From contig CAMFII010000007.1 in the NCBI GenBank assembly GCA_945952585.1, positions 1-64,000 on the forward strand: 64,000 bases of DNA, read 5' to 3'. The notes below the pieces were generated by a model. It was not told where the DNA came from. It saw only the letters and a list, made by a program, of their open reading frames with translations, and searched no databases. Source of the stretch: an uncultured Rhodobacter sp. Lineage in GTDB: Bacteria; Pseudomonadota; Alphaproteobacteria; Rhodobacterales; Rhodobacteraceae. This document shows positions 588-13,980 of this stretch, piece after piece (the first letter of the stretch is position 1; every line of letters begins with the position of its first letter). The position numbers and the translations under genes are program-made.

Positions 588-1406
588 ATGACCGATTGCG
601 TTGCACAGCATTACAGCGGAGAAGACCGTCTTTCGCTGGCCATAGCGGAAAGCCTGCGCAAGGCAGGCAAGGATATCGGAACGCTGACAACGGCCGATCT
701 GGCCAGCGTCGACGAGTTTCATATCGGCGGCCGCAAATCGACGTTGCACCTCGCCGAAGCGCTGAACCTCGCGCCCGGGTCAAGGGTCCTTGACCTCGGC
801 AGCGGTCTTGGTGGCCCCGCCCGCACGCTTGCCGAAACCTATGGCTGCCATGTCACCGGCATCGACCTGACGCCGGCCTTCTGCGAGGCGGCGGCCACCT
901 TGAGCGAGTGGGTCGGCCTTTCTGACCGGGTGACCTTTCTTGAGGGCGACGCCACGGACCTGCCGTTTAAGGACGCCAGCTTCGACGCGGCGACGACGAT
1001 CCATGTCGCGATGAACATCGCGCGCAAGGACCGCATGTATGCCGAGGCGCACCGGGTCCTGAAACCCGGCGGTCGCTTCGCCGTCTATGACGTGCTGCAG
1101 GGCGAGGGCGGGCCGCTGGTCTATCCCGTGCCCTGGGCGCGAACACCGGAGATCAGCCACCTTTCAACGCCCGAGGAGATGCCACGTCTGCTGGCAGATG
1201 CCGGGTTCCGGGTCGTCTCTACCGAGGATTCCACCGAAGAGTCGCTGAAATGGTTCGAGGCGATGGCGGCGCGGCTGTCGGTCGCCGCGCCGGCGGTGAC
1301 TTTCCAGACCTTCCTCGGCAACGACTTCCCGGTCATGGCCCGAAATCAGGTCACCAACCTGCGTGACCGCCGCATCCGGACGGTCACCTATATCTGCGAG
1401 GCGTAG
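588..1406 (+). CDS. SAM-dependent class I methyltransferase
   Basis: A 272-residue cytoplasmic methyltransferase. The SAM-binding motif I is clear near residues 67-80 (VLDLGSGLGGPART), followed by the acidic motif GIDLTP and motif VLKPGGRFAVYDV near residue 150-165. The fold resembles the UbiE/sarcosine-dimethylglycine methyltransferase group, but the substrate cannot be read from sequence. The ATG at 588 follows a GGAGGGGG ribosome site. About 250 bases without a recognisable gene separate it from the tRNA. It converges on pyc with a gap of only about 20 bases. Confidence 0.85.
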   Translation: MTDCVAQHYSGEDRLSLAIAESLRKAGKDIGTLTTADLASVDEFHIGGRKSTLHLAEALNLAPGSRVLDLGSGLGGPARTLAETYGCHVTGIDLTPAFCEAAATLSEWVGLSDRVTFLEGDATDLPFKDASFDAATTIHVAMNIARKDRMYAEAHRVLKPGGRFAVYDVLQGEGGPLVYPVPWARTPEISHLSTPEEMPRLLADAGFRVVSTEDSTEESLKWFEAMAARLSVAAPAVTFQTFLGNDFPVMARNQVTNLRDRRIRTVTYICEA

Positions 1407-1427
1407 GGTCGCGACGGCGGCGCAACC

Positions 1428-13014: not shown

Positions 13015-13097
13015 CCCGAACTCCTGCTTTTCGCCCGACCTTTAGCGGGCGGCAGCAGAGTTGCAATCGGAACGCATCAGCGGGGGGAGAAAAAGGA

Positions 13098-13168
13098 AAC
13101 GGCGGCGCTCAGGGAGGAGGAGGAGCGCCGCCGTTCTGCACGTCGGACCCAGGGAGGAGGAGGGGTCC
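13098..13168 (-). ncRNA. CcsR-type sRNA, unit 4 (terminal)
   Basis: On the minus strand a 6-bp hairpin (13168-13163 with 13150-13145, GGACCC/GGGTCC) precedes a perfect 13-bp hairpin (13135-13123 with 13110-13098). Both loops are exactly CTCCTCCTCCCT, the CCUCCUCCC motif of the Rhodobacter CcsR/cuckoo family. TTTCCTTTTTC follows the second stem, so it probably also ends the whole transcript. It is the last of four units downstream of the DUF1127 gene. Confidence 0.88.
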
Positions 13169-13204
13169 TTCGTAGCCCTCGGACCCGATGGGTCCTGTTT
13201 GTCT

Positions 13205-13275
13205 GCGACGACACCCAGGGAGGAGGAGGGGTATCGCCGCCTTTCAACGCCCGGCCCGAGGGAGTAGGAAGGCCG
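13205..13275 (-). ncRNA. CcsR-type sRNA, unit 3
   Basis: The 5' hairpin (13275-13271 with 13256-13252, CGGCC/GGCCG) has a degenerate loop: the plus strand reads AGGGAGTAGGAA instead of AGGGAGGAGGAG. The 3' hairpin pairs 13240-13229 with 13216-13205 around a perfect motif. Two mismatches in that stem on the plus strand (C13212/A13233 and A13208/C13237) become G-U wobbles on the minus strand. This fixes the transcribed strand as minus. Confidence 0.85.
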
Positions 13276-13327
13276 AACGCATCCGTTTTGGGGTGGCGGG
13301 CCTTGTGCCCGATCCCCGGAACTTGGC

Positions 13328-13393
13328 GCGGCGACCCCAGGGAGGAGGAGGGGGTCGCCGCTGGTCCGATCGGCCCAGGGAGGAGGAGGGGCC
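13328..13393 (-). ncRNA. CcsR-type sRNA, unit 2
   Basis: A 5-bp hairpin GGCCC/GGGCC (13393-13389 with 13376-13372) is followed on the minus strand by a perfect 11-bp hairpin (13361-13351 with 13338-13328). Both have the loop CTCCTCCTCCCT. The weak-then-strong order is the same as in the other three units. Confidence 0.88.
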
Positions 13394-13434
13394 TTTCGTA
13401 CGCCGTTGGAAGCGCTTTGGCTTCCGAAGAAAGT

Positions 13435-13503
13435 GCGGCGGCACCAGGGAGGAGGAGAAGTGCCGCCGCTTTTGCTACGAGCCCCAGGGAGGAGGAGAGG
13501 GGC
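13435..13503 (-). ncRNA. CcsR-type sRNA, unit 1
   Basis: This unit starts 13 bases after the DUF1127 stop. A 5-bp hairpin (13503-13499 with 13485-13481, loop of 13) is followed by a 10-bp hairpin (13469-13460 with 13444-13435, loop of 15). Both loops contain the complete motif with one to three extra bases. In Rhodobacter sphaeroides the CcsR RNAs are processed from a transcript shared with the DUF1127 gene, and the same is inferred here. Confidence 0.88.
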
Positions 13504-13515
13504 CCCGCAATAATC

Positions 13516-13731
13516 TTACTTGCCGTAGGCCGCTTCCGCTGCGATCTCGGGGATCAGCACGCGGTTGATGCCCAGGTCGGAAAGTTCGCGATCCGTCAGG
13601 ACCGCCAGTTCCCGGTAGGTCTGCTTGTACAGCCGGCGTTTGCGAAGCGCATCGCCGACCGTCTTCAGGACCGCGCCCAGGCGTTCCGGATAGCCGGAGC
13701 GGACTGCGGAGGAAGTTGTCACATAGCTCAT
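13516..13731 (-). CDS. DUF1127 small protein, CcaF1-like
   Basis: A 71-residue basic protein. The C-terminal half is the DUF1127 signature YRELAVLTDRELSDLGI, preceded by an arginine/lysine patch (RKRRLYKQ). In Rhodobacter sphaeroides the 71-residue DUF1127 protein CcaF1 is an RNA-binding protein that affects maturation of the CcsR sRNAs encoded directly downstream. The same arrangement exists here, with four CcsR units starting 13 bases after the stop. GAGG lies 7 bases before the ATG at 13731. The role is therefore inferred as an RNA-binding stress factor that acts on its own 3' sRNAs. Confidence 0.92.
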   Translation of the reverse strand: MSYVTTSSAVRSGYPERLGAVLKTVGDALRKRRLYKQTYRELAVLTDRELSDLGINRVLIPEIAAEAAYGK

Positions 13732-13785
13732 CGTCTTGCCTCGGTTGTCAGGTGCGCTTGTTTCGTCATTCGCGCTGTTAGGGCA

Positions 13786-13813
13786 AACATAACCCAATGC
13801 TGCAGATGCACAA
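13786..13813 (-). promoter_or_regulatory. Candidate promoter of DUF1127-CcsR transcript
   Basis: On the minus strand TTGTGC (13813-13808), 16 bases and TATGTT (13791-13786) lie about 55 bases before the DUF1127 start. In R. sphaeroides this operon is driven by RpoH-type sigma factors; no clear RpoH consensus was recognised here, so this hexamer pair is tentative. Confidence 0.35.
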
Positions 13814-13980
13814 TAACCCGAGCGCTCAATGCTGCCATGCGGCAAGTGCATGGCTTCCTTTGCGTAATTTTGACTTTTCCACAAATCTGCTGCCTGATTT
13901 CTGAGCGCGGTACGAACGCCCCTTGCCCTGCTGCCGACAAACGGCAACCTATGCCGCCCAGACAAGCCAGGGAGAATGAC

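Follow-up and report, generated by a model that had tools for sequence, protein, structure and literature searches.

The 64,000-nt stretch analysed here (the window) carries on its minus strand a small DUF1127 gene followed by eight hairpins with a common loop motif, and the question is what kind of locus this is and what switches it on. The original prediction took it for a complete CcaF1-CcsR locus, i.e., an array of cuckoo-type small RNAs together with the gene of their RNA-binding protein. The gene and the array consist of the following features.

13516..13731, minus strand: gene of a CcaF1-type DUF1127 protein, 71 aa (open reading frame; Pfam PF06568, 4.7e-10)
13430..13515, minus strand: unit 1 (CcsR1), two loops; RF02791 84 bits; fold z = −4.45 against shuffles
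13323..13403, minus strand: unit 2, two loops; RF02791 48.9 bits, below cut-off; z = −3.44
13200..13283, minus strand: unit 3, two hairpins with stems of 11 and 12 bp, first loop degenerate (TTCCTACTCCCT); RF02791 28.5 bits, below cut-off; z = −2.94
13094..13176, minus strand: unit 4, two loops; RF02791 48.6 bits, below cut-off; z = −7.50
13085..13135, minus strand: putative terminator judged by sequence and fold, in which TTTCCTTTTT comes after the 14-bp stem of the last hairpin

Identity of the gene and the hairpin array

Regarding the covariance-model check that came with the original prediction, unit 1 exceeds the Rfam gathering cut-off for CcsR1 (RF02791, 65.3 bits), but units 2–4 are sub-threshold though in register, and their assignment to the CcsR family is based on position, loops, and folding rather than on score. 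The stop codon of the DUF1127 gene ends at 13516 and the match of unit 1 begins at 13515 on the same strand. The 13-base gap claimed between gene and array does not hold: pairing in the unit-1 fold begins 5 nt past the stop codon, and the first loop motif follows at 18–20 nt.

The loop motif AGGGAGGAGGAG occurs exactly seven times on the plus strand (13111, 13151, 13217, 13339, 13377, 13446, and 13486), and a degenerate copy with two mismatches, AGGGAGTAGGAA, lies at 13259. A count over the complete genome of 3,910,532 bases gives 7 exact matches to the 12-mer, every one of them within the array, and none to the reversed control pattern. When up to two mismatches are allowed, the window contains 15 matches compared with a shuffle mean of 7.16, and 3 of 100 shuffles reach 15; since this count is much weaker, the whole-genome count of the 12-mer is the better test.

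All eight loops are hairpin tips, with contiguous stems of 7, 11, 5, 11, 11, 12, 6, and 14 bp, and the whole precursor folds with z = −5.5 (100 shuffles). In the window the hairpins' own arms pair over at least 6 bp in 7 of 8 cases, compared with 11 of 56 for arms swapped between hairpins. The same holds for 43 loci, where the numbers are 291 of 346 for own arms, 746 of 2950 for arms swapped within a locus, and 213 of 3000 for shuffled arms. The excess of swapped over shuffled arms is what near-copy units, and the frequent C and G beside the loop, would lead one to expect. The stem sequences diverge yet stay paired. These results confirm the original description of a 71-residue DUF1127 gene with eight hairpins behind it, seven exact loops and one degenerate, differing stems, and tips that read as anti-Shine-Dalgarno sequences on the minus strand.

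The CIN1 locus is described as having this layout, with CcsR-like sRNAs behind a DUF1127 gene, and in Rhodobacter sphaeroides ccaF1 is co-transcribed with four CcsR RNAs, whose maturation is helped by RNase E and CcaF1 (PMC10253847). The R. sphaeroides CcaF1-CcsR1-4 locus shares with the one in the window a 71-aa DUF1127 gene, four two-hairpin units with CCUCCUCCC loops and diverged stems, and a terminator-like 3' end. It differs in that the window has unit 1 alone above the Rfam cut-off and one degenerate loop among eight. Together with the RF02791 match and the DUF1127 gene upstream, this arrangement supports the CcaF1-CcsR reading; the locus is almost certainly a CcaF1-CcsR operon, and it is an ordinary, intact-looking member of this known operon type. 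As for the protein, DUF1127 proteins, including CcaF1 by complementation, can act through the PhoR kinase (PMC12501420), so RNA binding is perhaps not its main role.

No other place in the genome reaches the cut-off for CcsR1. The two best ones, C10:77664 (20.7 bits) and C11:62435 (19.5 bits), were dropped as candidate arrays, both fetched loci being free of CCTCCTCCC, and four weaker CcsR-like places have a motif count of 0 each. In the region C10:77664-80007, the weak CcsR1 match is accompanied within 2.4 kb by one gene each for a DUF1127 and a LysR protein. Elsewhere in the window, two tRNA genes lie on the minus strand at 1-54 and 264-335; they are identical over 54 shared bases, and the one at 1-54 is cut by the window end.

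In the sample of 100 genomes of the family, CcsR1 has a match with E <= 0.01 in 84 and above the Rfam cut-off in 6. The top-scoring one (L018, 106.2 bits) is preceded by a DUF1127 gene whose product is 51% identical to the window protein. Of the 29 family arrays L018-L046, 22 are preceded by a DUF1127 gene, and none is detected at the other 7 (L023, L026, L029, L032, L033, L035, and L043). Outside the window genome these counts come from an HMM built here from such proteins, except for L145 and L157, for which Pfam was used. Exact loops are present in the fetched stretch of 14 among 36 relatives of the window DUF1127 protein taken from titled genome records: the 11 best have 7 to 12, followed by L067, L060, and L058 with 8, 2, and 1, respectively. 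Across L018-L057 the number of exact loops per fetched stretch ranges from 2 to 14.

Several relatives have unusual arrays. L018 (G051:C4) has 14 loops (7 units), and its last five units are nearly identical. In L031 (G007:C6) four same-strand DUF1127-type reading frames lie within or overlap a ten-loop stretch. The loops of L145, L157, L146, and L161 are mostly variants (TCTCCTCCC, CTTCCTCCC, and GATCCTCCC) that exact-motif counts miss, and in L157 the variants alternate regularly.

The two-box promoter upstream of the DUF1127 gene

Beyond the original prediction, the comparison reveals a conserved two-box promoter of ccaF1-CcsR. It appeared as a conserved block in a 250-nt upstream alignment of the window and its 11 nearest relatives, and its parts at the window locus are the following.

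13837..13851, minus strand: box 1, ATGCACTTGCCGCAT (ATGC-N7-GCAT), operator-like, identified by conservation
13827..13840, minus strand: right part of box 1, GCATGGCAGCATTG, one base off the VtlR consensus GCAT-N3-TG-N3-T (AG for TG)
13798..13813, minus strand: box 2, TTGTGCATCTGCAGCA, holding TGC-N7-GCA and overlapping the −35-like TTGTGC (sequence and alignment)
13786..13791, minus strand: −10-like TATGTT, 16 nt from TTGTGC (sequence and alignment)

In the window alone, ATGC-N7-GCAT has 2 matches compared with 1.82 expected and is not improbable, so the evidence for box 1 is its conservation. Box 1 was also considered as an RNA structure and rejected; judged by eye, its outer bases vary across loci without pairing, and it is therefore treated as a DNA element. 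As for box 2, its exact 13-mer core has 1 match in the window (0.15 expected), and TTGTGCANNNGCAGCA is present exactly once in the genome, namely in box 2, with one-mismatch copies at control level. With spacings of 10–14 nt allowed, box 2 follows GCATTG at 12 or 13 nt in 59 aligned sites, some of which share genomes.

A pair of position weight matrices (PWMs) was trained on the 12 aligned loci and recounted elsewhere with order and spacing enforced (11–12 nt between the matrices). The cut-offs (2.2 and 6.0 bits) are the best scores in 300 shuffled stretches, which were 330 nt long compared with 396–400 nt for the tested ones. The pair, correctly ordered and spaced, precedes 25 of the 29 family arrays, all outside the training set, and none of the 28 array-less DUF1127 genes whose upstream stretch was scanned. 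It is missing from L029, L031 (box 1 alone), L033, and L035, and is present in four of the seven arrays with no detected DUF1127 gene (L023, L026, L032, and L043). Among the further loop-bearing loci, L060 and L067 have the pair and L058 does not. Box 1 alone passes in 8 or 9 of the 28 DUF1127 genes without array. L069, which belongs to these 28, exceeds the cut-off for each box singly and was discarded, as its two matches fall on the same box. The loci are related, and their counts are thus not independent.

The exact composite GCATRGCNGCATTG-N9-14-TTGTGCA has 53 sites in 51 of the 100 family genomes, and the reversed pattern has none. Of 240 genomes sampled from the class, three belonged to the same family, two of them matching, and the remaining 237 contain no composite. 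By genome, it is present in 50 of 84 with a CcsR match compared with 1 of 16 without (Fisher p 6.8e-5). Thirty of the 53 sites, the window's included, were read: exact loops lie downstream in 28, and the other 2 (L145 and L157; DUF1127 Pfam matches of 7.8e-15 and 2.2e-11, respectively) show variants of the loop, among them TCTCCTCCC and CTTCCTCCC, behind the DUF1127 gene.

The single box ATGC-N7-GCAT lies upstream of 35 of 40 DUF1127 genes with arrays (shuffle mean 0.185), a set that includes the 12 loci from which the motif was discovered, and also of 16 of 24 DUF1127 genes without arrays (shuffle mean 0.1). The latter value becomes 16 of 30 once six box-less DUF1127 genes of the window genome are counted, which the HMM built here did not find at 1e-5. 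The window genome has nine DUF1127 genes altogether, and the motif is upstream of the one in the window and of two others (L113 and L114, on C2 and C10). The two-box promoter is not described for R. sphaeroides CcaF1-CcsR in the passages of the literature covered here.

The candidate regulator and the neighbouring sRNA

Box 1 resembles operators of LysR-type regulators described in Rhizobiales. In the NfeR1 promoter, gel shifts and point mutations show that Sinorhizobium meliloti LsrB recognizes TGCA-N6-GCAT, located at −72 to −57/−60 (PMC10746234). LsrB also binds the abcR1 promoter; there GCAT-N3-TG-N3-T spans −61 to −49, and most abcR1 promoters have T-N11-A boxes in tandem (PMC8844928). 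For Brucella the motif CAATGCAGCCATGCA is given, with AbcR2 and three DUF1127 genes as the main targets (PMC12595884). Box 1 contains both TGCA-N6-GCAT and a T-N11-A box, and TGCACTTGCCGCAT at 13850-13837 fits the published LsrB site exactly. The second consensus, GCAT-N3-TG-N3-T of Rhizobiales, is missed by one base: GCATGGCAGCATT has AG rather than TG, and TG is found in L048, one relative among the 11 nearest.

With transcription starting at 13779, box 1 would span −72 to −58 and GCATGGCAGCATT −61 to −49; this start was placed by hand, 7 nt after TATGTT, during the comparison with the published sites, so the agreement in position is soft by a few bases. Regarding an RpoHI/RpoHII promoter, TTGTGC-N16-TATGTT contains TTG/TAT as described for rsp_0557 (PMC10673084), but it suits other sigma factors as well.

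LsrB is stated to be unique to Rhizobiales (PMC11975290), and the trxB-vtlR gene order is called well conserved across the class (PMC7486931). The query was a LysR protein (L183) whose gene immediately follows trxB in a genome from a different family of the class. Out of 53 trxB matches, 30 loci were examined, and 14 of these have a close homologue of the query behind trxB (phmmer). In the family, 96 of 100 genomes contain exactly one match at <=1e-50, which in the window genome is C9:9538-10401 (6.0e-83). Against solved structures, the best match of this regulator is 9HH1, i.e., Agrobacterium tumefaciens LsrB (9.7e-74), and the next one reaches 1.3e-33. In a tree, 31 family proteins and the 14 trxB-linked VtlR proteins form one clade with a support of 0.98, inside which each group is a clade of its own (0.892 and 0.929, respectively). 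The other members of the tree, 29 further LysR proteins of the window genome (of 41 HTH matches), all fall outside. The DNA-binding helix is nearly identical. The trxB-linked proteins are tied to LsrB via the published gene order and 9HH1 alone.

Some features differ from the Rhizobiales systems. The regulator of the window genome has no cysteine, so the redox sensing of A. tumefaciens LsrB would differ here; its 30 relatives have 0–2 cysteines, and 11 of the 14 trxB-linked homologues have none. In the window genome trxB lies at C1:506044, next to a gene that looks Lrp-type by eye, and the regulator is on C9. Two array-bearing genomes that are 85–86% complete (G022 and G028) have no detected regulator. 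Among the papers shown in the literature listings, none was found that connects CcsR with LysR, or SorY with LysR or AbcR1. As box 1 departs from one consensus and the trxB context is absent, membership of the locus in an LsrB/VtlR regulon is proposed only. Judging from the sequences, an LsrB/VtlR-type LysR protein probably controls ccaF1-CcsR.

Directly behind the LysR gene, on the same strand, there is another ATGC-N7-GCAT box followed by an sRNA-like stretch with a strong terminator.

L223 (window genome, C9) 1252-1413, minus strand: SorY-like sRNA, terminator, and ATGC-N7-GCAT box, adjoining the LsrB-type LysR gene

According to Rfam, this stretch scores best as SorY (76.1 bits, cut-off 111), followed by SorX (42.8, cut-off 46.6) and suhB (26.9, cut-off 41), and no match at the locus reaches its gathering threshold. 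Of 31 loci, 28 have a CCTCCCTGTTGG-type core after the regulator gene, and 17 have the strict box no more than 400 nt behind that gene, compared with 0.14 expected; one of the 17 (L197) lacks the core.

The VtlR regulon of Brucella and Agrobacterium (AbcR1/AbcR2, VrsA, and DUF1127 genes) is similar in having a regulator of the same clade, an sRNA directly behind the regulator gene, and DUF1127 genes among the targets. There, however, the regulator is beside trxB and the box core is TG, whereas the window genome has it away from trxB and AG in the box; its sRNA scores only weakly as suhB, i.e., the AbcR family (PMC7143759). LsrB-activated S. meliloti NfeR1 (alpha-r14) is likewise similar, with CCUCCUCCC loops, variable stems, and TGCA-N6-GCAT at about the same position; it differs by three hairpins with CCUCCUCCC motifs, a sigma-70 promoter of its own, and an NtrC site (PMC10746234).

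Alternative explanations and proposed mechanism

The conserved block could serve either side, because 35 of 40 array loci have a divergent frame with S[GA]KGGVGKST, which in the window starts at about 13981 on the plus strand. This P-loop gene is one we take to be of the Mrp/ApbC type. That the block belongs to it and not to ccaF1-CcsR is very improbable: L023, L032, and L043 keep array and boxes, yet their fetched stretches contain neither S[GA]KGGVGKST nor a detected DUF1127 gene, and loops follow the composite in a single orientation at each of the 30 loci read, exact at 28 and variant at 2. Least probable of all is a DNA- or terminator-type repeat (REP/BIME-like) with no sRNA function. Its GC-rich palindromes and terminator-like last hairpin have to be set against an exact 12-mer confined to a single place in the genome, a gene-then-array order that recurs in 22 of 29 family arrays, and stems that diverge and still pair; moreover, R. 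sphaeroides CcsR1 has been probed on a northern blot (PMC8625941).

A more serious, still unlikely, alternative keeps the operon and changes its control, the boxes being read by another LysR protein or dimeric activator, with RpoHI/RpoHII being the sole stress input. RpoHI/RpoHII is the promoter input published for R. sphaeroides, and no LysR protein is named in the passages of that source covered here (PMC10253847). In addition, the window genome has 41 LysR HTH matches over the cut-off, two other LysR genes being near other DUF1127 genes (C10:79828 near C10:78926 and C7:201741 near C7:201431), and box 1 is one base off the published VtlR consensus. On the other hand, box 1 holds the experimentally dissected LsrB site, 96 of 100 genomes have exactly one LsrB-type gene, and the same type of box lies between this gene and its SorY-type neighbour in about half of 31 loci.

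The main reading, to which we give a probability of about 0.75, is a single ccaF1-CcsR transcript whose promoter is switched by the LsrB/VtlR-type regulator. All its steps after the DNA are modelled on R. sphaeroides and S. meliloti. The C9:9538-10401 protein, bound at two T-N11-A boxes, would recruit polymerase to TTGTGC-N16-TATGTT, a −35/−10 pair that RpoH or RpoD holoenzyme could use. One minus-strand transcript would then run from near 13779 to the terminator-like hairpin near 13085. Its 5' part would be translated into the small CcaF1-type DUF1127 protein, and the 3' part, with four two-hairpin CcsR units, might be cut into separate sRNAs by RNase E aided by CcaF1, as in R. sphaeroides. 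Each unit would display CUCCUCCUCCCU (one of eight degenerate) in two open loops held by stems. These loops may pair with G-rich Shine-Dalgarno regions and compete with the ribosome, so that translation of several mRNAs would be blocked. Regarding targets, GGGAGGA-N4-13-ATG has 101 sites in the genome compared with 12 for the reversed pattern, and thus many partners are possible; as a target prediction the pattern was set aside, since it shows Shine-Dalgarno sequences and singles out no CcsR targets.

The locus itself is one more CcaF1-CcsR operon, and its promoter is a concrete candidate for what controls CcsR sRNAs besides RpoH. Beyond this, the analysis adds the conserved promoter and an LsrB-type regulator with its SorY-like neighbour, a well-conserved finding that runs against one printed statement, that of uniqueness to Rhizobiales (PMC11975290). 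It is fairly likely that LsrB/VtlR regulators extend beyond Rhizobiales and switch ccaF1-CcsR via a dedicated two-box promoter, which stays beside the array also at loci lacking a detected DUF1127 gene, that Rhizobiales and Rhodobacterales share one circuit, and that SorY is the positional counterpart of AbcR. In Rhodobacteraceae, a single circuit would then comprise the LsrB-type regulator, DUF1127 proteins, and anti-Shine-Dalgarno sRNAs, as a counterpart to LsrB/VtlR, AbcR1/2, NfeR1, and DUF1127 in Rhizobiales, and one regulator, testable in R. sphaeroides as an organism safe in the laboratory, would tie together the AbcR/NfeR1 and SorY/CcsR systems.
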